Shown: positions 4,411-34,274 of the stretch, piece by piece
How the letters are laid out: each line of letters begins with the position of its first letter
Numbering within the stretch: position 1 is the first letter of the stretch
Assembly (NCBI RefSeq): GCF_018409545.1
Contig: NZ_AP024563.1
Span: forward strand, 1,194,755-1,258,754
Reading direction: 5' to 3'
DNA length: 64,000 nt
Origin: Allochromatium tepidum
GTDB lineage: Bacteria > Pseudomonadota > Gammaproteobacteria > Chromatiales > Chromatiaceae
The notes under the pieces: model-generated
Seen by the model: only the letters and a program-made list of their open reading frames with translations
What the model was told of the DNA's origin: nothing
The model's database searches: none
Translations under genes and position numbers: made by a program

Positions 4411-4415
4411 GGATT

Positions 4416-5495: not shown

Positions 5496-5496
5496 G

Positions 5497-6177: not shown

Positions 6178-6191
6178 GGCATCCTCTCGAA

Positions 6192-13671: not shown

Positions 13672-13688
13672 CCTCGGGTGTCCTCTTT

Positions 13689-17291: not shown

Positions 17292-17379
17292 ACCGGGCCT
17301 GGGCGGAATCGAGCGCGCCGACACTTGGACGGCGCACCGCCAAAGTCCGTTGCCCGCATCCGGCTTGAGCGAGGTTGAG

Positions 17380-17399
17380 GCGTTACGCTTGGGTAACGT
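17380..17399. promoter_or_regulatory. Upstream palindrome 1 (candidate activator site)
   Basis: The arms CGTTAC (17381-17386) and GTAACG (17393-17398) are an inverted repeat with a 6-bp spacer. The same core recurs about 90 bases downstream. It lies about 200 bases upstream of the sigma-54-like promoter, a normal distance for an enhancer bound by an NtrC-type activator such as the one encoded at 32955-34274. Confidence 0.55.
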
Positions 17400-17421
17400 T
17401 TGGCCGGATGTTGTTACCTCG

Positions 17422-17439
17422 AATTCAAGTTTTTGAATT
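17422..17439. promoter_or_regulatory. AT-rich inverted repeat between the two candidate activator sites
   Basis: AATTCAA (17422-17428) and TTGAATT (17433-17439) form a perfect 7-bp inverted repeat around GTTT. It lies in an AT-rich tract (17420-17462) quite unlike the surrounding DNA, of the kind often bent by IHF in sigma-54 promoters. Function is inferred only from its position. Confidence 0.3.
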
Positions 17440-17467
17440 TCATATAAATCTCAATATTTCTCCGATT

Positions 17468-17493
17468 CAGGCGTTACGTTCTTGTAACGCCTG
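17468..17493. promoter_or_regulatory. Upstream palindrome 2 (candidate activator site)
   Basis: CAGGCGTTAC (17468-17477) and GTAACGCCTG (17484-17493) form a perfect 10-bp inverted repeat with a 6-bp spacer. It shares its core with the palindrome at 17380-17399 and lies about 97 bases upstream of the -24 element. No U-tract follows, so it is not a typical terminator for the preceding chemoreceptor gene. Confidence 0.6.
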
Positions 17494-17587
17494 CCGTGCC
17501 GGACGCCCGGATCGCCTCCCAACGCCATCCCGCTCGCATTGATAATTGTCAATCCAATCAATCCCCTATTCTTCGTATCGAAATAGT

Positions 17588-17605
17588 CGGGTATGCACCC
17601 TGCTT
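17588..17605 (+). promoter_or_regulatory. Sigma-54-type -24/-12 promoter for the molybdoenzyme operon
   Basis: GG at 17590-17591 and GC at 17602-17603 are separated by exactly 10 bases, the invariant spacing of sigma-54 promoters. The context GGGTATGCACCCTGCTT keeps the TGC-T of the -12 box. The expected start is near 17615, about 70 bases before the first gene. Support comes from the two upstream palindromes and the NtrC-type activator at the end of the operon. Confidence 0.5.
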
Positions 17606-17685
17606 ATTCGATCCGAACAAGAGGGTCGCCATGACGGCCCGGTTTATCGGCCCCTCATGGGGCTCACCGGAGGAGGGGAGACATC

Positions 17686-18408
17686 ATGCCAGTCGGGTTA
17701 CAAGCCCAACCATCGCTCGGGGTGCCGGGCAAGAAGCGCTGGGCGATGGTCATCGACCTGCGCCGCTGCATCGGCTGCATGGCCTGCGTCTGCGCGGACA
17801 AGGCCGAGTACGACGTGCCGCTCGGGGTGTGGCGCACCATCGTCAAGGTCAAGGACACCGGGAGCTATCCCAACACCAAGCGCCACTTCATGCCGCGGTT
17901 GTGCAATCATTGCGACAACCCGCCGTGCGTGCGCAACTGTCCGACCGAGGCGACCTATAAGCACGAAGAAGGCTTCGTGCTCCAGCGCTACGAGCGCTGC
18001 ATCGCCTGCCGCACCTGTATCGCGGCCTGTCCCTACAACGCCCGGCATGTACTGCCGAAGAACCGCGACCGGGTGAAGATCGGCGGGGTGATCGACAAGT
18101 GCACCTTCTGTCATCACCGGGTGGCCGCCGATCTGGTACCGGCCTGTGTGCAGACCTGTCTGGGGCGCTCGCGCATCTTCGGCGATCTGAACGACCCCAA
18201 CAGCGAGGTCGCGCGCCTGGTCGCCCGCCACAGCGTGGTCACACTCAAGCCCGAGAAGGGCACCGCCCCGCAGGTCTATTACATCAAGCCCGACCGCGTC
18301 CACACCGAGCAGGTTCTGAGCCGGCCGGTGTCGCACGCGGCCCGCGCCGACGCGGAGGCCTTCTACCGCCACAACCGTGGCACCCAGTTCTTCTCCGGCG
18401 TGCTCTGA
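17686..18408 (+). CDS. Molybdoenzyme iron-sulfur electron-transfer subunit (B subunit)
   Basis: The 240-residue protein has four Cys-cluster sets like the PsrB/TtrB/SoeB family: RRCIGCMACVCADK, LCNHCDNPPCVRNCP, RCIACRTCIAACPYNA and KCTFCHHR. It would pass electrons between the catalytic subunit and the membrane subunit. In the first set the fourth ligand position (residue 38) is Asp, while an extra Cys stands at residue 36, an unusual arrangement. There is a strong ribosome site (GGAGGAGGGGAG). No Tat signal is present, so it would be carried by the partner subunit. It is the first gene of the operon. Confidence 0.9.
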   Translation: MPVGLQAQPSLGVPGKKRWAMVIDLRRCIGCMACVCADKAEYDVPLGVWRTIVKVKDTGSYPNTKRHFMPRLCNHCDNPPCVRNCPTEATYKHEEGFVLQRYERCIACRTCIAACPYNARHVLPKNRDRVKIGGVIDKCTFCHHRVAADLVPACVQTCLGRSRIFGDLNDPNSEVARLVARHSVVTLKPEKGTAPQVYYIKPDRVHTEQVLSRPVSHAARADAEAFYRHNRGTQFFSGVL

Positions 18409-18421
18409 GGGGGATGCAGCC

Positions 18422-19309
18422 ATGTTCGAGTACTTTGAATTCAACATCGCCCCCTGGGGTTGGGAGATCACGGTCTACTTCTTCCTGATCGGCACGGCGG
18501 CCATGACCTATGTCTACGCGGCGGCCCCAGCGGTCTTCGGCGATGTCTTCGGCGGCATCGCGCGTTCCATGGAGCCCTTCCAGAAAACCGGCATGCTGGC
18601 GGCGCTGGTGCTGCTGCTGATCTCCGGGCCGCTGCTGATCGTCGATCTGGGGGTGCCGGAGCGCTTCCTCTATCCGATCCTGCATTTCCATTGGACTTCA
18701 CCGCTGTCCTGGGGCGCGCTCTTTCTGCCGCTGTTCGGGCTGTGCATCGTCGGTTTTCTGGCCGCCCTCTGGTTCAACCGGCCCCAGCTGCTCAAGCCGA
18801 TCGGTATCCTCGGCATGCTGCTGAGTCTCTCCATGCCGCTCTATACCGGTCTGGATCTGATGGTGCACCAGACCCGCGAGCTCTGGAGCAACCCCACCAT
18901 TCCGGTGCTGTTCGTCATCCTCTCCGTCAGCTCGGGCACCGCCCTGGTCAGCGTCATTCATCTCGCGCGCGGTCAGTTCGACGCGCGCACCTTCGAGTTC
19001 CTGCACTGGTTTCTCTACGTCGCGCTGGGAACCACCCTGGCACTGTTCCTCGGCGAGCTGGTGACGCTGCTCTACGGCAGCGCGGAGCTGCAACAGGCCT
19101 GGACACTGATCAATGAGCGCTTCTGGGTGCAATTCTGGGTGATGACCTTTGGACTCGGCATCCTGACGCCCTTCCTGCTGATGATCGTCACCCATTACTG
19201 GAAGAGTGCCCGGGTACTGACCCTGGCCGCCGTGCTGGCGGCGGTCGGCGCCTTTTTCTTTCGTAGCGTGCTGATCTACGCCGGTCAGCTCACTCAGATC
19301 TATTACTGA
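18422..19309 (+). CDS. NrfD-like membrane subunit (C subunit), quinone-interacting anchor
   Basis: The 295-residue protein starts at ATG 18422 (MFEYFEFNIAPWGWEI), 13 bases after the B subunit. It shows about eight or nine membrane segments and the family pattern of NrfD/PsrC/SoeC anchors: ITVYFFLIGTAAMTYVY, LIVDLGVPERFLYPILHF and FLGELVTLLYGS. Proteins of this family exchange electrons with the quinone pool. No heme ligands are expected. Order B-C-A is as in tetrathionate reductase (ttrBCA), not psrABC. Confidence 0.92.
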   Translation: MFEYFEFNIAPWGWEITVYFFLIGTAAMTYVYAAAPAVFGDVFGGIARSMEPFQKTGMLAALVLLLISGPLLIVDLGVPERFLYPILHFHWTSPLSWGALFLPLFGLCIVGFLAALWFNRPQLLKPIGILGMLLSLSMPLYTGLDLMVHQTRELWSNPTIPVLFVILSVSSGTALVSVIHLARGQFDARTFEFLHWFLYVALGTTLALFLGELVTLLYGSAELQQAWTLINERFWVQFWVMTFGLGILTPFLLMIVTHYWKSARVLTLAAVLAAVGAFFFRSVLIYAGQLTQIYY

Positions 19310-19327: not shown

Positions 19328-22024
19328 ATGAGCGATCTCGCAACCCGAAACACCGAGGGCGATATCGGGCGCCTGAGCCGCCGCGACTTCATCAAGCTCG
19401 GCACCGCCGTCGGCGCCGCCGCCGGTACCCTGTCACTCGGCAGCCGCCGGCTGATGGCCATGGAGCAGGAGCTGGGGGGCGACGACATCTCCGCCGTCAC
19501 CGGCGCCCAGCGCCAGTCCGTGCCCTATACCTGTCTGGTCTGCAACATCGAGGACGGCGGCGTGGCCTTCGTCGAGAACGGACGCATCGTCAAGCTGGAA
19601 GGCAACATGGACCACCCCAACACCCGCGGCAAGCTGTGCGCCAAGGGCAACTCGGGGTTCCTGCACGTCTACGACCCCGACCGCATCATGACCCCGCTAC
19701 TGCGCACCGGAAAGCGCGGCGAGGGCAAGTGGAAACGGCTCTCCTACGACGAGGCGACCAGTCTGCTCGCCAAGAAGCTGCGTGAAGTGATCGACCGCGC
19801 GCAGTCCGAGGGCGACGAGGCCATCCTCAATGAGATCGTCTTCAAATGGGGCCGCAACCGCACCGGCGGGGCCGTGCATCGCTTTATGCACGCGCTCGGC
19901 TCCAACGCCATGATCAATCACACCAACATCTGCGAGTCCTCGAAGAAGGTCGGGCTGGAACCCTCCTGGGGACCGGACATCGAGTCCTGTGACTGGGCCA
20001 ACACCAAGTACATCATCAACTTCGGCTCCAATGTGCTGGAGACGGCCTATTTCATGAACCCCAACGCCCAGCGCCTGGTCGACGGCGTGGTGGGCAACAA
20101 GGCCAAGCTGGTCTCCTTCGATGTGCGCCTGTCCAACACCTCGGGCTTTGCCGATGAGGCCTATTTCCCCTATCCGGGGACCGATGGGGCCATTGCGCTC
20201 GCCATGGCCCACGTCATCATGAACGAGGGACTGTACGATGCCGCCTTCATCCGCGACTGGACCAATGTCACGGCCGAGCAGCTCATCGCGCATCTGAAGC
20301 CCTACACGCCGGAGTTCGCCGAGCAGGAGTCGACCGTCCCGGCCCGCGACATCCGCCGCATCGCCCGCGAGTTCGCCACCACCAAGCCGGCCACCACCTT
20401 CTCCTATCGCGGCCCGGCCAAGCATGTCTACGGCGCCTATCAGGAGGCCGCCATCCACATGCTCAATGTCATCACCGGCAATGTCGAGAAGAAGGGCGGT
20501 TACTGTCTGCCGCGCGGCATGGACTGGCCTCAGCCCCAGCCCGAGCCGCCCAAGGGCAAGACGGCGAGCCTGCTGGCCGCGCCGCCGCTCTATCCGCTGG
20601 CCTCGCACCACGTCTCGACCCATGTGCCCTACATGATCATGAAAGGCGAGGCCAGGGTGTCGGTGTGGATGCATCTCTACGACAACCCGGTCTACACCTA
20701 TCCGTCCAGCCACGTCTGGGCGCATCTGCTGAAGGACGAGACGCTGCTGCCGTTCGTGGTCTCCTTCAGCCCCTATATGTCCGAGACCACGGAGCTGGCC
20801 GATCTCATCATCCCCGACGTCACCTATCTGGAACGCCACGATCCCGAGTCCATGCCGAGCGGACTCTATCCCTGTCTGTCCATCCGCCAGCCGGTGGTCA
20901 AGCCCTTGGGCGGCACCCAGGAGTTCCGCCAGACCCTGATCGATGTGATCAAGAAGGTCGATCCCGACGGCTCGCTGGGGATCCGGCAGTACTTTGCCTT
21001 CGACACGGTCGAGGACTGGATGCGCGCCCACTTCGACGCCATCCCCGGACTCAAGGACGAAGGCGGTTGGGATTTCATGAAGCGCAAGGGCGTTTGGCCC
21101 ATTTATGGACAGGTCGACAAGACCACCGCCAAGATCGTCGACAAGAACGGCAATGAGGTCGAGCCGGAGTACGAACTCTACAAGAAGCCGGTACCCGCCG
21201 CCGATCTGGAGGGGGCGGAGGTCGGCGAGGACGGCACCATCCGCAAGAACGGCAAGGCGATCGGCGTGCGTATCGGGGATCAGAGCTATGTCGGCTTCGG
21301 CACCCCGTCGCGCCGCATCGAGCTCTACAAGCAGAGCTTCAAGGACTATGGCTTCAACCCGCTGCCGGTCTACAAGCGGTTGCCCTCGCGCGACAAGCGC
21401 TCCGACGAGCTGGTGCTGACCACCTTCAAGGTCAACGTCCACACCCAAAGCCGCACGGCCTCGATCAAGTACCTGGCCGAGCTGTATCACAAGAATCCGG
21501 TCTGGATCAATCCCAAGACCGCCGCTGCGCGCGGCATCGCCGACGGCGATCTGATCCGCGTGACCTCGGATGTCGGTCACATCGTCACCCGCGCCCATGT
21601 CACCGAGGGTATCCATCCCGATGTCGTCGCGGTCTCCACCGCCTGCGGCCACTCGGCCTATGGTCGTCTGGCCCAGCTCAAACAGAAAGAAGCCGCCGCC
21701 GAGTGGGCGCAGGGCGGCGATCCGGACATCACCCACAACGTCTGGTGGGACGACAAGGGCGTGCATCCCAATCCGATTATCCGACTGGCTGTCGATCCCA
21801 TCGGCGGCTCCCAGGGTTGGTATGACACTCTGGTGCGGGTGAGCAAGGCCGAGCCCGGCGATCACTATGGCGACGTTGAGGCCAGTGTCGAAGTCTCCAT
21901 CAAGGACTACGAGCAGACCCTGCGGTTGGCCTACACCGGCGATCTGCACCGGATCAATCACAAGGAAGTGGACATCGACTGGGATCATCTGCCGGAACCG
22001 GCACTGCACGTCGGCGGGCATTGA
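19328..22024 (+). CDS. Tat-exported molybdopterin oxidoreductase catalytic subunit (A subunit)
   Basis: The 898-residue protein has a Tat motif SRRDFIKLG (residues 17-25), placing it in the periplasm. The N-terminal cluster site is C69-x2-C72-x3-Asp76...C104 (YTCLVCNIEDGG, GKLCAKGNSG), so the third Cys of the usual 4Fe-4S motif is Asp. The Mo/W ligand is probably Cys202 (NICESSKKVG). NFGSNVLE, GPAKHVYGAYQ and TACGHSAYG are bis-MGD-binding blocks of the DMSO reductase superfamily, including the C-terminal domain at about 700-850. The substrate is not assignable. Gene order suggests a tetrathionate-, selenate- or polysulfide-type reductase, or a sulfite- or arsenite-type oxidase. Confidence 0.9.
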   Translation: MSDLATRNTEGDIGRLSRRDFIKLGTAVGAAAGTLSLGSRRLMAMEQELGGDDISAVTGAQRQSVPYTCLVCNIEDGGVAFVENGRIVKLEGNMDHPNTRGKLCAKGNSGFLHVYDPDRIMTPLLRTGKRGEGKWKRLSYDEATSLLAKKLREVIDRAQSEGDEAILNEIVFKWGRNRTGGAVHRFMHALGSNAMINHTNICESSKKVGLEPSWGPDIESCDWANTKYIINFGSNVLETAYFMNPNAQRLVDGVVGNKAKLVSFDVRLSNTSGFADEAYFPYPGTDGAIALAMAHVIMNEGLYDAAFIRDWTNVTAEQLIAHLKPYTPEFAEQESTVPARDIRRIAREFATTKPATTFSYRGPAKHVYGAYQEAAIHMLNVITGNVEKKGGYCLPRGMDWPQPQPEPPKGKTASLLAAPPLYPLASHHVSTHVPYMIMKGEARVSVWMHLYDNPVYTYPSSHVWAHLLKDETLLPFVVSFSPYMSETTELADLIIPDVTYLERHDPESMPSGLYPCLSIRQPVVKPLGGTQEFRQTLIDVIKKVDPDGSLGIRQYFAFDTVEDWMRAHFDAIPGLKDEGGWDFMKRKGVWPIYGQVDKTTAKIVDKNGNEVEPEYELYKKPVPAADLEGAEVGEDGTIRKNGKAIGVRIGDQSYVGFGTPSRRIELYKQSFKDYGFNPLPVYKRLPSRDKRSDELVLTTFKVNVHTQSRTASIKYLAELYHKNPVWINPKTAAARGIADGDLIRVTSDVGHIVTRAHVTEGIHPDVVAVSTACGHSAYGRLAQLKQKEAAAEWAQGGDPDITHNVWWDDKGVHPNPIIRLAVDPIGGSQGWYDTLVRVSKAEPGDHYGDVEASVEVSIKDYEQTLRLAYTGDLHRINHKEVDIDWDHLPEPALHVGGH

Positions 22025-22100
22025 TCCATCGGATGGGTGGAGCGCCGCGAAACCCATCCTCCAGTCGCCCAGACCGCCAAACAACCGAGGACTTCGACGA

Positions 22101-22850
22101 ATGCAGACACATCACCAGGTCGCGGCCCAGTCATCCAGGCCGGTCGCGGCGGATGAAGCCATTGAGGAGCGCGCCGCTCTGGCGGGCCTCTATCACCTGG
22201 TCGCGCGCTGTCTCGAAGAGGAGCTGGACCGCGAGACACTGCGCCTGCTGCGCGGCGCACTGCGCGAGCCGTTGAGCGCCGCGGGCTGGACACTCGATGC
22301 CGACTTCTTCGCAACCGCCGAGGACACCCTGCTCGAAGTCCTGGCCGAGGAGTACACCGGACTCCTGGTCGCCCCCGGCTGCATCAATCCTCACGCCTCG
22401 GTGTTCGAGACCGGGGCGCTCTTCCGCGAGCCCTGCGACCGCGCGGCAGCCGCTTACCGCGAGGCCGGCTTCGACTACCGGCGGCGTCTGAGCGGGGAGT
22501 TCCCGGACCACATCGGCACCCTGCTGGGCTTCCTCGGCCATCTCGCCGAGGCCGAGGCGGACGCCTTGCGCCTGGGTGACACCGAGGCGGCCGAGCAGGC
22601 CAGACAGCGCCATGACCGCTTTCTACTGGAGCAGCTCGGACCCTGGGCGCCCGGCTGGTGCCGGCGCGCCGCGCACGCGGCGCTGCACCCCTTCTACCGT
22701 CAGATGCTCCAGTTCACCGAGCAGCTCCTGTGGCTGGCGCTGGCCGAGATCACCGACCGGCGCGGACTCAAGGAACTGATGGCCCAGAACCGGCGCGAGC
22801 CCAAGAAGCTCGACTACAACGCCGATTTCCGCAAGGCATCGGGTCTCTAG
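22101..22850 (+). CDS. TorD/DmsD-type chaperone for the molybdoenzyme
   Basis: The 249-residue helical protein starts at ATG 22101, 76 bases after the catalytic subunit. It carries the TorD-family signature around EEYTGLLVAPGCINPHASVF and FPDHIGTLLGFLGHLAEAE, followed by HPFYRQMLQF. Such chaperones bind the Tat signal of the partner and hold it back until the cofactor is inserted. An unusual tail (QNRREPKKLDYNADFRKASG) extends past the normal core. Its place right after the A subunit supports a dedicated pairing. Confidence 0.88.
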   Translation: MQTHHQVAAQSSRPVAADEAIEERAALAGLYHLVARCLEEELDRETLRLLRGALREPLSAAGWTLDADFFATAEDTLLEVLAEEYTGLLVAPGCINPHASVFETGALFREPCDRAAAAYREAGFDYRRRLSGEFPDHIGTLLGFLGHLAEAEADALRLGDTEAAEQARQRHDRFLLEQLGPWAPGWCRRAAHAALHPFYRQMLQFTEQLLWLALAEITDRRGLKELMAQNRREPKKLDYNADFRKASGL

Positions 22851-22874: not shown

Positions 22875-24008
22875 ATGCGCATCCTGATCGTCGAGGGCTC
22901 GGGCCGCGGGTTTCTCTGTCATTACAGCCACGCCCTGGCCTCGGGTCTGCACCAGGCCGGCGAAGCCGTGCGGCTCCTGACCGGCGCGCGTGACGAGCTG
23001 GCCGATTGGTCGGTGCCCTTCGACAAGCGGGCCTGTCTTGCCGATGGGCTGGCCGGCTGGTTGTGTCTGCGCCGCGAGGTGCGTGAATACCGACCGGACG
23101 TGGTGCATCTGCAATGGATCAATCGCCCGCTGGCAGCGCTGGCCTTCCTGCACTGGGCCAGGGCACGCGGTATCGCGGTGATCTACACCCCGCACAACAT
23201 CCTGCCGCACGAGCGGCGCTGGCTGAGCCTACCGCTGTTTCGCGCCCTCTACCGGCGCGTCGATCGCGTGGTCGCGCGCGACAAGCACATGGGCTGGGCG
23301 CTGGAAGAGCTGCTCGACACGCCCCAGGAGCGGCTTGCTCATCTACCCGGCAGCCCCAACCCCATGGCGCTCGATAGCTTCCCGACGCGGCCCTGTCCGG
23401 AGCTGGCCACGGCCCGGGACGAAGAGTTGCGGCTGCTGTTCTTCGGGCATGGCTCGGCCCGCAAGGGGCTGGACGTGCTGCTCGGCGTGCTGGCCGCCCG
23501 ACCCTGGCCGGCGTACCTGCATCTGGTGGTCGCGGGGGAGGGCGTCCTGACCGGGATCGATCCTCACCTGCTCGCTGCGGCTCGCGCGCGGCTGCGGATC
23601 ACAGTGATCGACCGCTATCTGCGACCGTCCGAGGTCAAGTATCTGTTCTCGACCGGCGATCTCCTGGTCATGCCCTACCGTAAGCGCTGCAAGAGTCCGC
23701 TCACCGATCTGGCGGCGGCCTTCGGCGTGCCGGTGCTGCGCTCCGACCGGGTGCAGGGAACCGGCTTCCGCGAGGGTTGGCAGGGACAGACCTATCCGCA
23801 CGATCAGCCCGAGCTGTTGGCGGAACGACTGCTCGGGCTGGTCGCGGACCGAGCGGCGCTCGCTGCCCAACGCGGACCCTGCGAGCCGGTCCGTGTCGCC
23901 ATGACCCGACTCGCCGAGGGGCACCGTCTGTTGTATCTGGAGGTCCGCGCGGGGAGCCGATCGATTCCGGCCGCGACGGTGAGCCGGCCGCTCGCTGGAG
24001 GACTCTGA
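22875..24008 (+). CDS. GT4-type glycosyltransferase
   Basis: The 377-residue protein has a Rossmann-like N-terminus (MRILIVEGSGRGFLCHYSHA) and the C-terminal GT4 pattern: LRLLFFGHGSARKGLDVLL, RLRITVIDRYLRPSEVKYLF and a GDLLVMPYRK stretch ending the donor site. Such enzymes transfer sugars from nucleotide donors to lipids or glycans. It starts 25 bases after the chaperone and its stop overlaps the next start (TGATG), so it is co-translated with redox genes. A sugar transferase is unexpected here. Its acceptor is unknown. Confidence 0.8.
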   Translation: MRILIVEGSGRGFLCHYSHALASGLHQAGEAVRLLTGARDELADWSVPFDKRACLADGLAGWLCLRREVREYRPDVVHLQWINRPLAALAFLHWARARGIAVIYTPHNILPHERRWLSLPLFRALYRRVDRVVARDKHMGWALEELLDTPQERLAHLPGSPNPMALDSFPTRPCPELATARDEELRLLFFGHGSARKGLDVLLGVLAARPWPAYLHLVVAGEGVLTGIDPHLLAAARARLRITVIDRYLRPSEVKYLFSTGDLLVMPYRKRCKSPLTDLAAAFGVPVLRSDRVQGTGFREGWQGQTYPHDQPELLAERLLGLVADRAALAAQRGPCEPVRVAMTRLAEGHRLLYLEVRAGSRSIPAATVSRPLAGGL

Positions 24009-24451
24009 TGTCCGGTGCCGGCAAGACCCTGATCCTGATCGCCCACACCGCCCGTCTGCCGGACCTGGTGAAGCTGGTGCGCAAGCGCCGGGCGGTGTTC
24101 GCGGACTATCGCCTGCTCGCCACGCTGGAGACCGGCGCGGCCATTGAGGCCGAAACCGGGCTGGAGGTCACGTCGCTGTTCTCTGGGCGCCGGGGCGGGG
24201 AAATCCAGCTCTGCGGGCTGATCTGTACCAATAGCATCCGCGCCGTCTATTTCCTCCGCGACCTGGAGACGAATCGCTTGGACGAGCCAGACATCACGCC
24301 CTTCTATCGCGCTTGCGACCTCAACAACGTCCCGCTTGCCACCAACATGGTCAGCGCGGTTGCGCTGACGCATTGGCTGGGGCGGCGCCTGGAGTCAGGG
24401 CGGGCGGGCCGCGTGGAGTCCGACGCCGGCGAGGGCGTCCTGCCATGCTGA
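24008..24451 (+). CDS. Methylglyoxal synthase-like protein with altered catalytic residues
   Basis: The 147-residue protein follows the MgsA fold: LILIAHTARLPDLVKLV, LLATLETG, SGRRGGEIQLCGLI and NVPLATNMVSAVAL. MgsA converts dihydroxyacetone phosphate to methylglyoxal. By alignment from memory with the E. coli enzyme, His19 is kept (His13), Asp71 becomes Glu65, His98 becomes Asp92 and Asp101 is kept (Asp95). Normal MgsA activity is therefore doubtful, and a ligand-sensing or other lyase role is possible. Start and stop both overlap neighbours (TGATG and ATGCTGA), placing it firmly within the operon. Confidence 0.75.
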   Translation: MSGAGKTLILIAHTARLPDLVKLVRKRRAVFADYRLLATLETGAAIEAETGLEVTSLFSGRRGGEIQLCGLICTNSIRAVYFLRDLETNRLDEPDITPFYRACDLNNVPLATNMVSAVALTHWLGRRLESGRAGRVESDAGEGVLPC

Positions 24452-25617
24452 ACGCGATGCCGACCCCATCGAACCGTGGCGCGGCGCTGGCCCTATTGGA
24501 GGGCCGCGAGCTGCTGGAGGAGGAAACCCTCTGTCTCAATCTGCGCGGACGTGGCGAGCACTGCCGCCGCTGTGCCGCCGCCTGTCAGGCCGATGCCCTC
24601 TCATTGTCGCCTGATGCCCTGGAGGTCGACCGCGCGCGCTGTACTGGCTGCGGCGGCTGCGTGCCTGTTTGCCCGGCCGGGGCGCTGCGTCTGAGCGGTT
24701 TCTCACCGGCGCGGTTCCTGGCCGCGCTCGATGGCGCGCCCGAAGTGCATCTCCATTGCGGGGAGAGCCGGGATGGCGGCGGCGGGGTGGTGATCCCCTG
24801 CTTCAAGGTGCTCGACGAGCGGTTGCTGGCCGCCGCGCGCGCCGACGGGGTCGAGACGCTGCATTTGCACGGTCTGGAGCAGTGCACCGACTGTCGGCAC
24901 GGCGGCGCGCTGGAGTGGCTCGCGCGCGTCGGCCGCCGCCTGACGCGGCGTCTCGGCGATTCCGCACCCCGGTTGCAACAGGCCACCTCGGGTGAATCCG
25001 CCGATGCAGGGCCGCGCGAGCGCCAGGATCAGCCCCAGCTCAGCCGCCGCGCCTTCCTGCGCTTCGCCGGGGCGCGCGCCTCGCTAGAGGCCGCGCGCTG
25101 GCTGGTGCCGGTCGAGGAGGACGACGAGGCGGGCGCGGATCTGCCCTTCTTCCAGAGTGACATCACTGAGGTCCGCCGGCCGCATTCCTATCAGATGCCG
25201 CTGGCGGCGAGGGTCGAGCAGGCGCCCTGGGCAGCTAGACGACCGCTGCCCTGGCGGCTGCGCACCCTCGATGCACATTGCACCGGCTGTCTGGTGTGCG
25301 GACAGCGCTGTCCGACCGGCGCCCTGCTCGCGCACGAGGAGGGACGCACTGCCCTGGCCATCTCCTTCGAGCCGGCGCTCTGCACCGACTGTGGTCTCTG
25401 CAACGCGCTCTGTCCGGTCGACGCCATCACGATCCAGCCGGCGCGGCGAGCGAGCCAGGTGGCCGCGCCGCGTGCGACCCTAATGATGCGTCGGCTCACA
25501 GTCTGCGCGCGCTGCGGCGATGGTTTCGAGCCGGAGACGCCGGACGCGAAGCACTGTCCCATCTGCGCCAAGGAGGACGCACTGGATGAGGACTGGCTGA
25601 ACCTATTGGGTGCTTGA
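24445..25617 (+). CDS. Multi-cluster ferredoxin-type protein with C-terminal zinc ribbon
   Basis: The 390-residue protein has an N-terminal pair of clusters (HCRRCAAACQADAL, RCTGCGGCVPVCPAGAL). A middle domain follows with lone Cys residues (VIPCFKVLD, QCTDCRHGGAL) and an internal RRAFLRFAGARA stretch that resembles but is not a Tat signal. Then come two more clusters (CTGCLVCGQRCPTGA, CTDCGLCNALCPVDAI) and a final zinc ribbon (CARCGDGFE, KHCPICAKE). The first set has three visible Cys. It may be an electron hub linking the molybdoenzyme to other redox proteins of the operon. It starts at ATG 24445, inside the previous stop. Confidence 0.8.
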   Translation: MLNAMPTPSNRGAALALLEGRELLEEETLCLNLRGRGEHCRRCAAACQADALSLSPDALEVDRARCTGCGGCVPVCPAGALRLSGFSPARFLAALDGAPEVHLHCGESRDGGGGVVIPCFKVLDERLLAAARADGVETLHLHGLEQCTDCRHGGALEWLARVGRRLTRRLGDSAPRLQQATSGESADAGPRERQDQPQLSRRAFLRFAGARASLEAARWLVPVEEDDEAGADLPFFQSDITEVRRPHSYQMPLAARVEQAPWAARRPLPWRLRTLDAHCTGCLVCGQRCPTGALLAHEEGRTALAISFEPALCTDCGLCNALCPVDAITIQPARRASQVAAPRATLMMRRLTVCARCGDGFEPETPDAKHCPICAKEDALDEDWLNLLGA

Positions 25618-25620
25618 GGG

Positions 25621-25917
25621 TTGGCTGGGCGCGTGCCGCCGTGGCTGATCCGCACCCTGCTCAGTCTCGGCCTGCTTGGAGCGCTCTTTGGCGGCTATCT
25701 GTGGTTGAGTCGCCCGCGCACGCCCGAGGCGCTGTTCAAGACCCGCTGTGCCGCCTGCCACGAGCTGCGCGTTGAGCGTCTATGCGAGTTCGCGCCCCGG
25801 CAGCGCCCGGCCATCGTCGACACCATGCGGCGTCTGCACGAGGCCGATCAGGTCATCGATGAAGAAGAGGCGGTCATCATCCGCCGCTATTTGGAGGAGT
25901 CTCTCATATGCCCTTGA
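25621..25917 (+). CDS. Small membrane-anchored monoheme cytochrome c
   Basis: The roughly 94-98 residue protein has one hydrophobic anchor near its N-terminus (LIRTLLSLGLLGALFGGYLW) and one heme motif CAACH soon after. There is no ATG: TTG 25621 and GTG 25633 are the in-frame options, and GAGGG at 25616-25620 favours GTG 25633. The stop overlaps the ATG of the Mrp gene. It probably carries one electron at the outer face of the membrane. The C-terminal half (MRRLHEADQVIDEEEA) is helical, as in single-domain cytochromes c. Confidence 0.7.
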   Translation: MAGRVPPWLIRTLLSLGLLGALFGGYLWLSRPRTPEALFKTRCAACHELRVERLCEFAPRQRPAIVDTMRRLHEADQVIDEEEAVIIRRYLEESLICP

Positions 25918-28055
25918 GCCAGATCGCTGCACCGGAACGGTCGCGGAACGATCCGGACGCGGATGCGCGCCTGGAGCAGCACCTGCTAACGGTCCTAAGT
26001 CAGATCCAGGACGCCACGCGCGGTCTGGATGTGGTGACGGACGGCCAGGTCTATGCCGTGGTCGCCACGGGCGGCGCGGTGCGGGTGCTGCTCGATCCCG
26101 AGCGCTTCCCAAGCGAGGCGGCCCAGTCCGCCCTGGCCGAGACCATCCAGACGCTGCTCGCGGACGAGTCGGGCGTCGAGCGCCTGGTGGTCAAGCCGCG
26201 TCCGCGCTCGATCTGCCTGCGTTCCGAGCTGCCGGGCGTTCGCCGTGTGATCGGCGTGCACAGCGGCAAGGGCGGGGTGGGCAAATCCACGGTCGCGGTC
26301 AACCTGGCCCTGGCACTGGCCGCGCGCGGACTCCAGGTCGGCCTGCTGGATGCCGATGTCCACGGCCCCTCGGCGCCGACCCTGCTCGGGCTCTCGGGCC
26401 GGATGGAGACCACACCCGATGGTATGCGGGTGCGCCCGCTGGAGCGGCACGGGCTCAAGGTCGTCTCGCTCGGCTTCCTGCTGCCGGAGACCAAGGCCCT
26501 GATCTGGCGCGGCCCGCTGGTCGAGCGCGGGTTGGCGCAGTTGTTCACCGAGGTCGATTGGGGCGAACTGGACCTGTTGCTTGTCGATCTGCCGCCCGGT
26601 ACCTCCGACGTGCATCTGGAGGTCGCGCGCCAGGCGCCGCTGGCCGGTATCCTCACCGTCACCGCGCCGGGACAGGTCGCGGTGGACGACGTGCGGCGCG
26701 GGATGGAGATGTTCGCGGATCTGACGGTGCCCTGTCTGGGGATCGTCGAGAACTTCGCCGGTCTGGTCTGCGGTCGCTGCGGAACCGAGAGCGCCTTGTT
26801 CGGCGCGGGCGGCGGCGCGGAGCTGGCGACGCTGACCGGCCTGCCGCTGCTGGCGCGGCTGCCCTTCGATGCGGCGCTTGCCGAGGCGTCCGATGCCGGA
26901 CGTCCGCCGCTGGTGGCGAGTCCGGAGACGGCGGCGAGTGCCTGGTTCCAGGCGCTGGCTGGGCGAGTCGCCGGCAGGCTGGGTCTCGATCAGGCGGACC
27001 AACCAGAAGGGTATGCCATGCGTGCCCGACGCACTGTGTCGGCGGAAGCCGTGCCAGTGCAGTCCCCCGAGGAGACCGGGCCGATGGACTGTCGCGCGGA
27101 CACCATGCGCCGGACCGAGCCGCCGATCCCCATCCCGGTTCGCTCCGGCACCAGTCAAGCCCCCATCAACCCGGAGCCCGATACGGCCCCGGGCTATGCC
27201 GAGCCCGGCGAGCCCATCCCCGGTGTGCGCGATGTCGTCCTGGTCGCCGGCGGCAAGGGTGGGGTCGGCAAGTCCACGGTGACGGTGAATCTGGCCTGCG
27301 CCCTGCGCGTCCAGGGTCTGCGCGTCGGCGTGCTGGACGCGGATCTCTACGGCCCCTCCATCGCGCGGATGCTCGGCACCGACACCGAACTGGAGCAGGA
27401 CGCGGCAGGGCGCGCCATCCCCGCCGTCGGCCACGGCGTTCACAGCCTCTCGATCGCCCAGCGCATCCCGCCCGAGGCGGCCCTGGTGTGGAAGGGACCG
27501 CTGGTGACTCAGACCCTGATGGACATGGTCTATGGCGTCGCCTGGCCGGATCTGGATGTGCTGCTGGTCGATCTGCCGCCCGGCACCGGCGACGTCCAGC
27601 TCAGTCTGCTGGAGCGTCTGCCGGTCAGCGGGGCGGTGCTGGTAACCACGCCGCAGCGGCTCGCCCAGGTGGACGCCGAGCGCGGCATCGCACTCTTCCA
27701 CGAGTTGGACATCCCGGTGCTCGGGGTGATCGAGAACATGAGCCATCCGGTCTGTCCGAGCTGCGGCGAGCCCATGCCGCTGTTCCCGGATGCGGACGTG
27801 CGCGCGCTCGCCCGCCGCCGTCACGTCCCCTATCTGGGCCGCCTGCCGCTCGATCCCGCCGGACAGGTGCTCGCCGACACCGGCCGTCCCCTGGTCGAGG
27901 CGCTGCCCGAGAGCGCCGCCGCCCGGACCTTCCAGGAGTTCGCGCATCAACTCCGCGCCGCGCTGGAGCGGGAGGCCGAGGCCGCCTTGCGCAATGCCGA
28001 CCCCAACACCCGTGCCGCACACGCGGCCTTCTGGGAACGTCTGATCGAGGATTGA
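25908..28055 (+). CDS. Double Mrp/NBP35-type iron-sulfur carrier ATPase (tandem fusion)
   Basis: The 715-residue protein holds two complete Mrp domains. A short MIP18-like N-terminal region (LEQHLLTVLSQIQDATRGLD) precedes the first P-loop, HSGKGGVGKSTVAVNL (about residue 119), with LLDADVHGPSAPTLLG, VDLPPGTSD and CGRC. The second domain has GGKGGVGKSTVTVNL (about 447), LDADLYGPSIARMLG, VDLPPGTGD and CPSC. Both keep the Cys pair that holds the transferred Fe-S cluster. A Pro/Glu-rich linker (about 365-440) joins them. Mrp proteins dimerise, so this fusion is a covalent dimer. It may load clusters into the operon's enzymes. Confidence 0.92.
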   Translation: MPLSQIAAPERSRNDPDADARLEQHLLTVLSQIQDATRGLDVVTDGQVYAVVATGGAVRVLLDPERFPSEAAQSALAETIQTLLADESGVERLVVKPRPRSICLRSELPGVRRVIGVHSGKGGVGKSTVAVNLALALAARGLQVGLLDADVHGPSAPTLLGLSGRMETTPDGMRVRPLERHGLKVVSLGFLLPETKALIWRGPLVERGLAQLFTEVDWGELDLLLVDLPPGTSDVHLEVARQAPLAGILTVTAPGQVAVDDVRRGMEMFADLTVPCLGIVENFAGLVCGRCGTESALFGAGGGAELATLTGLPLLARLPFDAALAEASDAGRPPLVASPETAASAWFQALAGRVAGRLGLDQADQPEGYAMRARRTVSAEAVPVQSPEETGPMDCRADTMRRTEPPIPIPVRSGTSQAPINPEPDTAPGYAEPGEPIPGVRDVVLVAGGKGGVGKSTVTVNLACALRVQGLRVGVLDADLYGPSIARMLGTDTELEQDAAGRAIPAVGHGVHSLSIAQRIPPEAALVWKGPLVTQTLMDMVYGVAWPDLDVLLVDLPPGTGDVQLSLLERLPVSGAVLVTTPQRLAQVDAERGIALFHELDIPVLGVIENMSHPVCPSCGEPMPLFPDADVRALARRRHVPYLGRLPLDPAGQVLADTGRPLVEALPESAAARTFQEFAHQLRAALEREAEAALRNADPNTRAAHAAFWERLIED

Positions 28056-28056
28056 G

Positions 28057-28444: not shown

Positions 28445-28456
28445 GCGGAGGAACTG

Positions 28457-29188
28457 ATGACCGAACTCTACTTGTACCTGAATCGGCCCCTGCCCGAGGG
28501 GCTGGATCCGCAACGGCTCTCCGGACTCGCCGGGCTGGTGGTCGAGGCCGGCTGTCTCAGCGCGCGCGAGGCCGGCACCCTGCCTGCCCCAGTCGCCGCG
28601 CTCTGCATTCCGAGTGCGGATGCGCAAGCGGACTGGGACGCGAACGCCGCCCCGGCGTGTGTGGTCGACGCCGGACTGGACGCCTGCGCCGCCCTGCGCG
28701 ACGCCCAGCCGGAGCGCAACTGGCTGCCGCGCCTGACCGTCTATCCGCAGGAGGTCAGCTACCGCATGGCCAATTACAGCGGCGAAGGCTTCAAGTTCTT
28801 CACACCGGACGCGGCCACCATCCACGGCTATCGGGTCACGGATGGCGACCGTCTGCTGATTCCGACCCTCCGGCGTGCCCGTGACCTGGGCTTCGAGCAG
28901 ATCTGGCTGCACGCCCGCGAGGCCGAGCGACGCGGTCGGGGGTTGGATCTGGATCTTCTGGAGCGAGCGCGGGCCGAGTATCCCGAGGGGCTCTGGCTCT
29001 CCGGCGGAGCCGCCGAAGCGCGCCATCTTGAGAACCTCACCCGCGAGGGCGGGGCGGATGGGGTGGTGATCGGGTTCGACCTGCTTCAAGCCGTCGGTGT
29101 GGAGGCACTGCTGGCGGCCCTGGCCCCACCGCGTCCGCCCGAGGTGTCCGTCGCTCTGATGCCTCGTTCGGGTCATGCAGCCGTCTGA
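28457..29188 (+). CDS. Protein of unknown function in the molybdoenzyme operon
   Basis: The 243-residue soluble protein has no signal peptide. The C-terminal half (SGGAAEARHLENLTREGGAD then GVVIGFDLLQAVGVEALLAA) resembles the last strands of a TIM-barrel phosphate-binding site. A motif-like central stretch YPQEVSYRMANYSGEGFKFF is not recognised. The ribosome site GGAGG is the final sequence of the IS605-like element just upstream. It overlaps the start of the following rhodanese-like gene by 14 bases. I would not assign a function. Confidence 0.75.
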   Translation: MTELYLYLNRPLPEGLDPQRLSGLAGLVVEAGCLSAREAGTLPAPVAALCIPSADAQADWDANAAPACVVDAGLDACAALRDAQPERNWLPRLTVYPQEVSYRMANYSGEGFKFFTPDAATIHGYRVTDGDRLLIPTLRRARDLGFEQIWLHAREAERRGRGLDLDLLERARAEYPEGLWLSGGAAEARHLENLTREGGADGVVIGFDLLQAVGVEALLAALAPPRPPEVSVALMPRSGHAAV

Positions 29189-29690: not shown

Positions 29691-29698
29691 ACATCAGA

Positions 29699-30604
29699 AT
29701 GCTCGTGAATCCCCTGGTCGATGGAATCGAGCCGCTTCAGCCGATCCTATGGCTGCTGGCCGTCTTGTCTCCTGGCGTGACCGCTTCAGACGTGACGGAT
29801 CGCGAGTCGCGCCCCTGCGCCGACTGTCACGCGGCGATCGTGCAGACCTTCGCCGTGACCCGGATGGCGCAGGGAGCGGAGGGCGAGGTCTTCCGCCGGG
29901 AATGGATGGAGCAAGGCACGCCTGAGGGCTGTCTCGTCTGCCACGCGCCCTCCGGCGGCGCCGGCCTGAGCTGCAACGACTGTCATGGCCGGGCAGGGCA
30001 CCCTTATCCCCGGCTCCAGGTACCCGACATCTGCGCCCGCTGTCATGATGCTCCCGGCGAGAGTACCGTTCGCCGCTTTCGCGAGCACCCAGCCGCGCTT
30101 CAGGGGAAGGATTGTCTGGATTGCCACCTGCCGCCGGGTGGAGCCAAGGCTGGGCATGGCTTTATCGGCCCTTCGGTCGCCGGCTTCCTGGACGACGTTG
30201 CCCGGCTGAGGCTGTCGCTCCGCCATACCCCGAATGACGGCGCCCTCGTCCTGATCCGGGTCAGCCACCGCGCCGGCCATGCCCTGCCGGGTGGAACCAC
30301 GGGGCGCGCGGTTTGGCTGACGGTCAGCGGGCTGGATGCCGAGGGCATCACCGTCTGGCGCGAAACGGTGCGCTACGGCTGGGAGCGGCACGGCGAGAAC
30401 GAATGGCAAGACCGCACCCTGCCCCCCGGCCCGCCGACGTCGGTCGAGATCGCGCTTTCCACCCACAGGACGATGACCCGTCTGCGCGCCGAACTCTGGT
30501 ACCGCTTCAGAGCCGGAGACCTGGACACGCCGGATCCGCGCGCCCGGCTGCTGGATGCGGTCGAGCTGGATCTGCCGTCCCCGGCTCCGGCGGATCGGCG
30601 ATAA
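29699..30604 (+). CDS. Pentaheme periplasmic cytochrome c
   Basis: The 301-residue protein starts at ATG 29699 with an export signal (LQPILWLLAVLSPGVTA). Five heme motifs are clustered in the N-terminal half: CADCH, CLVCH, CNDCH, CARCH and CLDCH. The C-terminal half (TPNDGALVLIRVSHRAGHAL, RAVWLTVSGLDAEG) looks like a beta-sandwich. The pattern resembles cytochrome c554-like multiheme proteins that shuttle electrons to or from a periplasmic enzyme. It is the likely outer electron partner of the molybdoenzyme. Confidence 0.9.
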   Translation: MLVNPLVDGIEPLQPILWLLAVLSPGVTASDVTDRESRPCADCHAAIVQTFAVTRMAQGAEGEVFRREWMEQGTPEGCLVCHAPSGGAGLSCNDCHGRAGHPYPRLQVPDICARCHDAPGESTVRRFREHPAALQGKDCLDCHLPPGGAKAGHGFIGPSVAGFLDDVARLRLSLRHTPNDGALVLIRVSHRAGHALPGGTTGRAVWLTVSGLDAEGITVWRETVRYGWERHGENEWQDRTLPPGPPTSVEIALSTHRTMTRLRAELWYRFRAGDLDTPDPRARLLDAVELDLPSPAPADRR

Positions 30605-30653
30605 TCCATTGCCACGCGCCTTCATGGATCCGCCACCGAATCGACAACCCTTG

Positions 30654-31505
30654 ATGACACTGAATCGCCGCCGTTTCATCCGCCACCTGGTCGCCACGAC
30701 GCTCGGCGCGGCCTGGCCCGTGTTGGGGGCTTCGCCGGTACGCTTTGGCGTCACCGCCGTGATGCTCGATGATCGCGTCGGCTTTCTCAACGATTGGGCG
30801 GCCTGGCTGGGTGTAAGGCTCGGGCGGCCGGTGGTCTTCGTGCAGCGCGCACGCTATCGCGAGATCCTCGATCTACTGCTGGGCGGTCAGCTCGATCTGG
30901 CCTGGATCTGCGGCTATCCCTATGTTCGGCATCAGGACGCGCTGGAACTGATCGCGGTGCCGTCCTTCCAGGGGCAGCCGCTCTACCGCGCCTATGTCAT
31001 CGCCGCCGCCGAGGGCGGCGTCCAATCCTTCGAGGAACTCGCGGGCCGACTCTTCGCCTGGGCCGATCCCGACTCCAACTCTGGCTATCTCTACCCGAGG
31101 TCGTATCTGGCCGGCCTCGGGCGCGATCCGGATCACTTCTTTCGACGAACGTTTTTCACCTGGGGACACCCGCGCAGCGTGGTCGCGGTCGCCGAGGGGT
31201 TGGCCGACGGCGCGGCGGTCGATGGCTATGTCTGGGAGACCCTGGCGCGTCGCGATCCGGCGCTGACCGGGCAGACGCGGATCATCCTGCGCTCGCCCCT
31301 GTTCGGTTTTCCGCCGATCGTGGCCGCGCGTGACCTGCCGGCGGCGGATCGCACCCGGTTGCGCGAAATCCTGATCGGGCAGGCGGGAGACGCCGCCGGC
31401 CGCGCGCTGCTGGCGGAACTCAACCTCGACGGCTTCGTCACCGCCAAGCCGGCCCTGTTCGCGGATATCGCGGTGATGGCACGCCAATTGGGGCGAAGCG
31501 GGTGA
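30654..31505 (+). CDS. PhnD-like periplasmic binding protein, sensor component
   Basis: The roughly 283-residue protein begins MTLNRRRFIRHLVATTLGAA, a Tat-like signal (RRRFIR); an upstream ATG at 30624 is also possible. VRFGVTAVMLDDRVGFLNDW, LAWICGYPYVRHQDALELIA and FAWADPDSNSGYLYPR are hallmarks of PhnD-type binding proteins. No transporter genes adjoin it. It is directly followed, with 4-base overlap, by a histidine kinase and an activator. By analogy with the PhnD-like domain of TtrS, and as I recall ArxX, it probably presents an oxyanion to the kinase. Confidence 0.85.
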   Translation: MTLNRRRFIRHLVATTLGAAWPVLGASPVRFGVTAVMLDDRVGFLNDWAAWLGVRLGRPVVFVQRARYREILDLLLGGQLDLAWICGYPYVRHQDALELIAVPSFQGQPLYRAYVIAAAEGGVQSFEELAGRLFAWADPDSNSGYLYPRSYLAGLGRDPDHFFRRTFFTWGHPRSVVAVAEGLADGAAVDGYVWETLARRDPALTGQTRIILRSPLFGFPPIVAARDLPAADRTRLREILIGQAGDAAGRALLAELNLDGFVTAKPALFADIAVMARQLGRSG

Positions 31506-32941
31506 ACATAAGCCGCTTTTGGGCGAGCTATCGCGTCCGCCTGCCGCTGAGTCTGAGCGTCTCGGCGATCCTGACCGCGTTCTGTCTGGCGCTCGCACTC
31601 GGCGGACAGACCCTGGTCAATCTGCGCGAGGATCAGGGGCGCAACGCATCAATGTTGGCCCATGCCTGGGCCGAGATGCTGATCCAGGCGCTGCGCAACG
31701 AGGATGTCTGGCTGGCCTATGCGCTGCTGCGCGGTCCCGAAGGCGCTGAAGCCGGGGAAGCCGTATGGATCCTGGTCGATGCCGCCGGGCGCGTCTTCGC
31801 CAGCAACCGGCCGCGTCGCTATCGGCTCGATCAGCCGGTAAACGAGGCGCTGCCCTGGCTGCCGGCGACCGTTGAGCCGGATCGCATCGAACCGCTTGCA
31901 CGGGCGAACGGGGTCGATCAGGCCGAGGCCCAGCGTCTGCTGCGCCTGCCGCTGTTCAGCGACGGCACACTGGTCGGCGAACTGATCGCCCTGCTGTCCG
32001 ATACGCCCTATCTGCCGCGCTTTCGCGAGATCCTGGTCGGCGGCGTGCTGGTGACGGTCGGCGTGCTCGCCCTGCTGGTGCCGCTCGGCTGGCTGTGGGG
32101 ACGGCGCCTGGTGGCACCCCTGACCCGGCTCAGCGGCTGCATGAGCCGGGTCGGCAAGGAAGATCCGCGTCGGCTGTACTGCACACTGCCCGGCGATGAC
32201 AGTGAGATCGGTCAGCTTGGACGCCAGTTCGCCGCCATGGTTGCGGCCCTGGCCGAACAGGAGGCGCTGAAGGATCAGATGCTCCAGTCCGAGCGGCTGG
32301 CCGCAGTCGGGCGGGTTGCCGCCGGAGTCGCACATGAGGTGAACAACCCACTCGGCGGTATGCTGATGGCGATCGACGCCTATCGTTGCGCCCAACCTCC
32401 GGACGCGCGCACGGCCCGCCTGCTCGATCTGCTGGAGCGCGCACTGCGTCAGATCCAGGACTCGGTCTCGGCGCTGCTGGTCGAGGCGCGCGCCGATCCG
32501 CGTCCGCTGACGGCGCGCGATCTGGACGATGTGCGCACCCTGGCCCAACCGCGATTGGCCAAGTCCGGCGTGCGGCTGATCTGGCACAATGCCTTCGATG
32601 TGGCGACCACACTACCGGCGGCGCCGGTGCGCCAGTTACTGCTGAACCTGTTGCTCAACGCCATCGAGGCCGCACGCGACGGCGGGGCGGTGCGGGTGCG
32701 GCTGCTGAGCGAGGGCGACCGCCTGCGGCTGTGGGTGCGCAATCGCGGCCGGCCGATCCCGCCCGATCAGCTCGCCCATCTGTTCGAACCCTATCCGGCG
32801 GTTCGACCCCATGCGCGCGGACTGGGGCTATGGATCTGCTATCAGATCGTCTCCCAGCTCGGCGGCGTCATCGAAGTTGATTCCGAGGGCGAATTGACGA
32901 CCTTCCGGGTCAGTCTGCCGCTGGGTCGACCGGTTGCATAA
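31502..32941 (+). CDS. Membrane histidine kinase of the molybdoenzyme operon
   Basis: The 479-residue kinase has TM1 (about residues 17-36), a periplasmic domain of about 130 residues and TM2 (ILVGGVLVTVGVLALLVPLG). A HAMP-like segment leads into HisKA with the phospho-acceptor motif AAGVAHEVNNPLGGML and an ATP-binding domain (LLLNAIEAARDGGA, RGLGLWICYQIV). It belongs to the NtrB-like class that works with NtrC-type regulators. The overlap with the PhnD-like gene argues for a three-part sensor. Confidence 0.93.
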   Translation: MNISRFWASYRVRLPLSLSVSAILTAFCLALALGGQTLVNLREDQGRNASMLAHAWAEMLIQALRNEDVWLAYALLRGPEGAEAGEAVWILVDAAGRVFASNRPRRYRLDQPVNEALPWLPATVEPDRIEPLARANGVDQAEAQRLLRLPLFSDGTLVGELIALLSDTPYLPRFREILVGGVLVTVGVLALLVPLGWLWGRRLVAPLTRLSGCMSRVGKEDPRRLYCTLPGDDSEIGQLGRQFAAMVAALAEQEALKDQMLQSERLAAVGRVAAGVAHEVNNPLGGMLMAIDAYRCAQPPDARTARLLDLLERALRQIQDSVSALLVEARADPRPLTARDLDDVRTLAQPRLAKSGVRLIWHNAFDVATTLPAAPVRQLLLNLLLNAIEAARDGGAVRVRLLSEGDRLRLWVRNRGRPIPPDQLAHLFEPYPAVRPHARGLGLWICYQIVSQLGGVIEVDSEGELTTFRVSLPLGRPVA

Positions 32942-32954
32942 GAGAGTGCGTGAT

Positions 32955-34274
32955 ATGACACGGGTCTGTCTGATCGAGGACGATGCCATCATGGGTGAGG
33001 CGTTGGTGGAGCGTCTGACCCTGGAGGGATTCGAGGTGGACTGGCAGTGCACGGGGCGCGCCGGTCTGGCGGCGCTGCGCCAGACCGAGGCGGCGTTGGC
33101 GGTCATCGACGTGAATCTGCCCGACCTGTCCGGGATCGCCCTGTTCGAGCGGCTGATCGAGTCGCGTATCGCGCGGCCGCCCACGCTCTTCATCACCGGC
33201 TACGGCACCATCGAGGACGCGGTGCGTCTGCTCAAGCTCGGCGCGGCCGACTATCTGACCAAGCCGCTCGATCCGGGCGCGCTCATCGACAAGCTGCGTG
33301 CGCTCGCCGCCACGAGTGCGCCTTGCCGCGACGCGCGCCGGGAGGCCGGTGAGAACGAACGCCTGGGGATTTCGCCTTCGATGTGCCGCCTCGAATCCGA
33401 ACTCGACCGTCTGGCGCGCCATCCGCAGACGCCGGTTCTCATCAGCGGCGAATCGGGCGTGGGCAAGGAGGTCGTGGCCCGCGCCCTGCATCGGCGTCAG
33501 TGTCCGCAGGCGCCCTTCGTCGCGGTCAACTGTGCCGCGCTGCCCGAGACCCTGATCGAGGCCGAACTCTTCGGCCACGAGCGCGGGGCCTTCACCGGGG
33601 CCGAGCGCCGTCGTCCCGGTGTCTTCGAGCAGGCCGGCGATGGGGTGCTCTTTCTCGATGAGATCGGCGACATGCCGCTGGCCTTGCAATCGCGTCTGCT
33701 GCGGGTGGTGCAGTCGCGCCAACTGACCCGCATCGGCGGCGTCGAGCCGGTCGCGGTCGCCGCGCGTCTGGTGTGCGCCACCCATCGCGATCTGGCCGCC
33801 CTGGTGCGCGCCGGGCACTTTCGCGAGGATCTCTACTACCGGGTACGGGTGCTGGAGATCGCGATCCCGCCGCTGCGCGAGCGGCCCGAGGACATCCTGT
33901 GGCTGGCCGAACGCTTCCTGGCCGAGCATGGCGCACGCTTCCCGGATGAGCGCCGCCGGCTCGGGGCGGCGGATCGTCAGTGGTTGCTGAATCAATCCTG
34001 GCCGGGCAATGTGCGCGAGTTGCAGCATACCCTGGAGCGCGCCTGCATCCTCGGGCAGGGCGAGCGATTGCGCTTGGAATCTTCCGACGCCACACCCGCC
34101 GAGACCGGTCTCAGACAGCAGACCGAAGCCGGCGAACGGGCCGCGATCCTGGCCGCGCTCGTCGAACAGGACTACCACATGACCCAGACCGCCGCCCGGC
34201 TCGGCATCAGCCGCAAGACGCTGTGGCAGAAGATGAAACGGTATGGGCTGTCACGACATGATGATGTAGGTTGA
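32955..34274 (+). CDS. NtrC-type sigma-54-dependent response regulator
   Basis: The 439-residue protein has a receiver domain (VIDVNLPDLSG, phosphorylated Asp; TKPLDPGAL), an AAA+ domain with Walker A GESGVGKEVVARAL, the sigma-54 contact motif GAFTGAERRRPG, and Walker B LFLDEIGDMP. The C-terminal Fis-type helix-turn-helix is MTQTAARLGISRKTLWQKMK. It therefore activates sigma-54 promoters. The start at 32955 (MTRVCLIEDDAIMGE) follows GAGAG. The likely target is the promoter near 17590 with its two upstream palindromes. Confidence 0.95.
   Translation: MTRVCLIEDDAIMGEALVERLTLEGFEVDWQCTGRAGLAALRQTEAALAVIDVNLPDLSGIALFERLIESRIARPPTLFITGYGTIEDAVRLLKLGAADYLTKPLDPGALIDKLRALAATSAPCRDARREAGENERLGISPSMCRLESELDRLARHPQTPVLISGESGVGKEVVARALHRRQCPQAPFVAVNCAALPETLIEAELFGHERGAFTGAERRRPGVFEQAGDGVLFLDEIGDMPLALQSRLLRVVQSRQLTRIGGVEPVAVAARLVCATHRDLAALVRAGHFREDLYYRVRVLEIAIPPLRERPEDILWLAERFLAEHGARFPDERRRLGAADRQWLLNQSWPGNVRELQHTLERACILGQGERLRLESSDATPAETGLRQQTEAGERAAILAALVEQDYHMTQTAARLGISRKTLWQKMKRYGLSRHDDVG

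Follow-up and report, generated by a model that had tools for sequence, protein, structure and literature searches.

The intergenic region at 17380-17605 of the window, a stretch of 64,000 nucleotides from Allochromatium tepidum (contig NZ_AP024563.1), very probably serves as a sigma-54 enhancer control region. The operon that it would control has 13 genes, encodes a respiratory molybdoenzyme resembling PsrA/PhsA and would be activated by the response regulator R through two upstream dyads. Thirteen co-directional genes lie downstream of the region and the last three encode, in this order, a periplasmic binding protein (X), a sensor kinase (S) and R. The original prediction had described an enhancer-promoter layout of the sigma-54 type with an activator from its own operon, and every computational test applied to the sequence fits this layout. 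From the same tests we infer binding by R, dependence on sigma-54, transcription as a single unit and the kind of ligand that is sensed.

A sequence scan identified a perfect palindrome with 10-bp arms (CAGGCGTTAC-GTTCTT-GTAACGCCTG, 17468-17493). A partial repeat of it is found upstream (AGGCGTTAC-GCTTGG-GTAACG, about 17378-17398). Both had been predicted, the repeat at 17380-17399, and both are present. They have in common the core CGTTAC-N6-GTAACG (17381-17398 and 17472-17489, 91 bp from start to start), and the 16-bp dyad GTTAC-N6-GTAAC shared within it is referred to as UAS 1 and UAS 2 in its two copies (Table 1). In a genome-wide pattern search of the 3.38 Mb genome, the exact dyad was found at these two places only, and so was the longer core when up to one mismatch was allowed. 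Both copies lie upstream of the operon. Two copies per genome are unremarkable as a count, since a genome of this base composition should contain about one exact site. Two random sites would fall within 110 bp of each other with a probability of about 6.5e-5. Such genome-wide chance figures weigh far less for the dyads than their conservation in relatives.

Other elements of the region carry less weight. The AT-rich inverted repeat predicted between the palindromes is present but is not a conserved part of the control region: it was rejected as a functional part on the ground that it is kept in the closest relatives only, and it is probably not essential. An IHF-like sequence is graded as weak: one-mismatch matches stand at a fixed position in a large number of relatives, but shuffled sequence matches equally well at a rate that varies between loci from 3% to 100%.

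Table 1. Features of the control region and of the operon. Positions are those of the window.
Feature	Position	Strand	Remarks
UAS 1, distal predicted activator site	17382..17397 (with flanking C/G 17381-17398)		GTTACGCTTGGGTAAC; conserved in relatives
Single GTTAC half-site	17413..17417	+	31 bp past UAS 1 start; kept in Allochromatium and Thiocystis
AT-rich inverted repeat AATTCAA-N4-TTGAATT	17422..17439		genus-level only
UAS 2, proximal predicted activator site	17473..17488 (extended palindrome 17468-17493)		GTTACGTTCTTGTAAC; conserved in relatives
IHF-like sequence AATCAATCCCCTA	17556..17568	+	one mismatch to WATCAANNNNTTR; 33 nt before -24 box; weak
-24/-12 (sigma-54) element GGGTATGCACCCTGCT	17589..17604	+	-12 GC 122 bp from UAS 2 centre
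B, 4Fe-4S subunit	17686..18408	+	first gene of the operon
C, NrfD-type membrane subunit	18419..19309	+
A, molybdopterin catalytic subunit, Tat signal	19328..22024	+	nearest curated models PhsA/PsrA, below all equivalog cut-offs
D, TorD-type chaperone	22077..22850	+
Glycosyltransferase-like gene	22875..24008	+	conserved in operon
Methylglyoxal-synthase-like (MGS) domain gene	24005..24451	+
F, ferredoxin-type 4Fe-4S protein	24445..25617	+
Double Mrp/NUBPL-type iron-sulphur P-loop NTPase	25908..28055	+
HisA-like protein	28457..29188	+
Multihaem cytochrome c7-like protein	29696..30604	+
X, AioX-like periplasmic binding protein (PF12974)	30651..31505	+	all seven AioX pocket residues including Cys106
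S, sensor histidine kinase	31502..32941	+
R, NtrC-type response regulator	32955..34274	+	helix SRKTLWQKM; predicted binder of both UAS

The -24/-12 element, predicted at 17588-17605, is present and well placed, but weak on its own score: the GG-N10-GC spacing is exact and only 8 of the 12 consensus letters are matched. Such a score is frequent by chance, with 171 occurrences in the window on both strands, or about 0.6 per 450 bp per strand. The weight of the element comes from its position, which is fixed in relatives. There, the GG-N10-GC letters are kept at the same place, scores range from 9 to 12 of 12 in several relatives, and 11-12 of 12 are reached in loci L086, L090, L096 and L100. No sigma-70-like promoter was found in 17240-17700, nor a separate one for the XSR genes, and rpoN is present in the genome.

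The operon shows the same order of genes, B-C-A-D-...-X-S-R, across genera. Relatives with the syntenic operon comprise Allochromatium humboldtianum, a Thiocystis MAG whose contig ends before XSR, several Sedimenticola, a Thiodiazotropha and alphaproteobacterial MAGs, among them Magnetospirillum sp. 64-120. In nearly all orthologous loci the dyad pair and the -24/-12 element precede B. The spacing of the pair is mostly 89-91 bp in gammaproteobacteria and 76-123 bp in alphaproteobacteria, and the proximal dyad lies 107-122 bp from the -12 GC, while the control region outside dyads and promoter aligns poorly between genera. When 5-bp inverted repeats with gaps of 0-15 were counted, GTTAC at gap 6 was by far the commonest (17 of 20 upstream regions), and the runner-up (8 of 20) was a shifted reading of the same dyad. 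The core letters are kept in relatives and pairing beyond the GTTAC core is not, which argues for a protein site and against an RNA hairpin. Of note, a damaged operon in locus L066 (G073, 2056-6400) has kept both palindromes 91 bp apart; the A gene is cut off at about codon 700 by a deletion that reaches into the MGS/F genes, and the stretch read contains no XSR. In this locus the enhancers appear to have outlived their operon.

The enzyme and its operon were assigned with profile models. The catalytic subunit was rejected both as an Arx/Arr enzyme (172 bits against an ArrA cut-off of 1600) and as AioA (TIGR02693, 23 bits where 359 are required), and a genome-wide search at E 1e-200 found no AioA. 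The gene run is interrupted by gaps of 290-510 bp and by a HEARO element, which makes a single transcript through R less certain. The HEARO element is found in an insert of about 395 bp (28056-28450) between the Mrp and HisA genes, with a full-length match to HEARO (omega RNA) at 28058-28305 on the + strand (103.9 bits, gathering score 83). The insert, a predicted RNA-bearing mobile element within the operon, is absent from the same junction in A. humboldtianum.

X (PF12974), the histidine kinase S and the NtrC-type R are adjacent, as an AioXSR-type three-component system requires. The best structural match of X is AioX (PDB 6esk, 218 bits), and X keeps seven of seven residues of the AioX arsenite pocket as described in PMC5908839, namely Y88, C106, Y131, S161, S163, H192 and D210. 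Arsenite or another thiol-reactive oxyanion is therefore a plausible ligand, given the conserved Cys106; the ligand cannot be read from the sequence, because ArrX has the same pocket residues as AioX and yet binds arsenate (PMC5908839). R combines a receiver domain, a Sigma54_activat (AAA+) domain with a GAFTGA motif, read in its translation, and an HTH_8 domain (Fis-type HTH). The prediction that the matching activator is encoded by the same operon is thus borne out by its last gene.

The palindrome precedes the same operon in relatives but not exclusively, as it is also found before other molybdoenzymes accompanied by related XSR modules. In Sedimenticola selenatireducens, eight exact GTTAC dyads are present in 4.6 Mb and seven of them lie beside three XSR modules whose regulators are of the SRK type, named after the recognition helix of R. 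Three belong to the operon studied here, and four adjoin two further modules with the helices SRKNLW and SRKTLW, both oriented divergently from enzymes of the type II DMSO-reductase family (above the TIGR03479 cut-off, with 1332 bits). In two more gammaproteobacterial genomes, GTTAC dyads accompany SRK-type XSR modules next to molybdoenzymes, namely an ArrA-like one (432-449 bits, well short of the cut-off) and a 57% relative of the enzyme in the window. The palindrome is hence a hallmark of SRK-type XSR modules rather than of a single operon. In parallel, six ArrA/ArxA-like clusters obtained by profile search contained neither GTTAC dyads (0 of 6) nor XSR. Other members of the family also have single exact dyads whose surroundings, searched to 1.5 kb, showed no XSR gene; these are probably due to chance. 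Three loci of one genus (L038, L039, L040) contain GTTAC dyad pairs 31 bp apart, with an AioX-like gene within 1.5 kb in two of the three, and probably represent another XSR-controlled operon.

The DNA word was found to vary with the recognition helix of R, which reads SRK[T/N/S]LW in the operon family and [S/G]RTT[L/M/F]W in AioR. In a hand-compiled table of all XSR loci with a readable R helix, exact GTTAC dyads adjoin 19 of 21 SRK-type regulators, the exceptions being L067 and L088, and 0 of 8 of the SRTT type. Conversely, exact GTTCG-N6-CGAAC dyads adjoin none of the 21 SRK-type regulators and four of the eight SRTT-type ones, the other four having no exact GTTCG dyad. A direct count over upstream regions, in which four loci labelled as SRK-type have their helix unread, agrees with this table. 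Fisher p-values for the link are too optimistic, because the SRTT regulators group in a single, strongly supported clade of the R protein tree, so that the link counts few independent events.

The most telling case for the link is L091, a Rhodobacteraceae MAG with the same enzyme operon and an A subunit 78% identical. Its XSR genes are placed upstream, its R falls into the AioR clade and has the helix SRTTMW, and its control region has a GTTCG dyad, GTTCGGAAATCCGAAC, in place of GTTAC. Sensor module and binding site thus appear to have been swapped together. L100 also has an R of the AioR clade and no GTTAC dyad.

Control of the operon would be a variant of the AioXSR design with a DNA word and a helix of its own. 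As in the AioXSR/aioBA systems of Agrobacterium, Herminiimonas and Rhizobium NT-26, a periplasmic binding protein, a kinase and an NtrC-type sigma-54 activator are combined, X has every AioX pocket residue, and two GTT-N10-AAC dyads lie ahead of a -24/-12 promoter (PMC5335332, PMC3834237). AioR binds GTT-N10-AAC, the footprinted A. tumefaciens site being GTTCGGATTTCCGAAC (PMC5335332), and two palindromes with a -24/-12 box were reported for 12 of 12 aioBA operons with aioXSR (PMC3834237). In the aio loci fetched for comparison the word is GTTCG-N6-CGAAC. The inner letters of the dyad are thus AC here and CG in aio, and the helix is SRKTLW where AioR has SRTTLW. Moreover, the dyads are 91 bp apart instead of 33 bp in L114 (one aio locus, with two exact sites), XSR are the last genes of the operon, and the enzyme encoded is PsrA/PhsA-like. 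Having neither the GTTCG word, nor the SRTT helix, nor aioBA under its control, the system was not assigned to the AioR regulon. A likeness to ArxXSR, which serves the anaerobic arsenite oxidase operon arxB2ABCD, lies in the proximity of XSR to an enzyme of the DMSO-reductase family, and in Alkalilimnicola a putative ArxR site starting with gtaac has been described together with a putative RpoN promoter (PMC5908839). However, the A subunit is not ArxA/ArrA-like (172 against 1600 bits), and gene order and accessory genes differ. The paired upstream dyads, the -24/-12 element and the AAA+ activator with GAFTGA are those of sigma-54 enhancer promoters of the NtrC family, whereas dyad sequence and signal input are not those of NtrC itself but of the AioR group.

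By analogy with these systems, X would bind an oxyanion, most likely one related to the substrate of the enzyme, and would signal via the kinase S, so that R becomes phosphorylated as in the AioXSR precedent. R dimers are expected to occupy both GTTAC-N6-GTAAC dyads, which lie some 134 and 225 bp above an expected start near 17615. A DNA loop would then bring the oligomerised R into contact with the sigma-54 RNA polymerase at 17589-17604, where R would drive ATP-dependent formation of the open complex. Since the R gene is the last of the same run, a positive feedback of the circuit is probable.

Other readings of the region were considered. The dyads could be operators of another DNA-binding protein, with the XSR genes at the end of the operon acting elsewhere, and the 15 kb that separate the R gene from the dyads would agree with this. 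It seems improbable, as most exact dyads of A. tepidum and Sedimenticola are close either to this operon or to a further XSR module, the word changes where the module changes (L091), and the ArrA-like clusters devoid of XSR are devoid of dyads as well. That the dyads are XSR sites while the B promoter is of another type, R repressing or activating in some other way, is more improbable still: the low score of the -24/-12 element taken alone would allow it, but R has a sigma-54 AAA+ domain with GAFTGA, no sigma-70-like promoter was detected in the interval searched, and position and GG-N10-GC letters of the element are kept in relatives, with matches of 11-12 of 12 in the four loci named above.

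It is very improbable that the palindromes are RNA hairpins, either as a terminator of the chemoreceptor (MCP) gene upstream or as a leader structure. The palindrome region comes after the stop codon of this gene and the RNA of UAS 2 and its extended arms has a favourable fold (z -4.1), but neither a T-tract, nor a terminator-like site, nor an Rfam match was found at the palindromes. Pairing outside the core is lost in relatives with the core letters kept, and the MCP gene was undetected in most of their loci. In addition, the dyads lie upstream of the predicted start and would therefore be absent from the RNA of the operon. An intrinsic terminator or RNA element was rejected, a GC-rich hairpin followed by a T-tract being missing. 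The reading of the region as a sigma-54 enhancer promoter activated by R is the one retained.

This reading ties a molybdoenzyme operon to a specific inducer system, so that the substrate may be sought via the ligand of X. It also suggests that the AioXSR design may serve many respiratory oxyanion enzymes. A literature search of incomplete coverage found no report of XSR outside arsenic. More tentatively, and with somewhat less than even confidence, SRK-type XSR modules could be widespread oxyanion-sensing sigma-54 switches beyond arsenic, in control of molybdoenzyme operons of several unrelated kinds (PsrA/PhsA-like, type II DMSO-reductase-like and ArrA-like). Their word would be set largely by one helix residue (K for GTTAC, T for GTTCG), letting operons exchange sensor modules together with sites. 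The K-or-T rule would provide a simple sequence-based predictor of the targets of this regulator family.

Two observations concern the genes on the other side of the control region. The chemoreceptor gene is found directly upstream (15243-17291) and reads towards the control region, hence the dyads lie downstream of it; an mcp gene adjoining aio is under AioR control in A. tumefaciens GW4 (PMC5335332). Further upstream, an ORF on the minus strand (13327-13944) contains a stretch that looks MoaA-like by eye and is then apparently lost. It is possibly a broken molybdenum-cofactor gene close to the molybdoenzyme operon.
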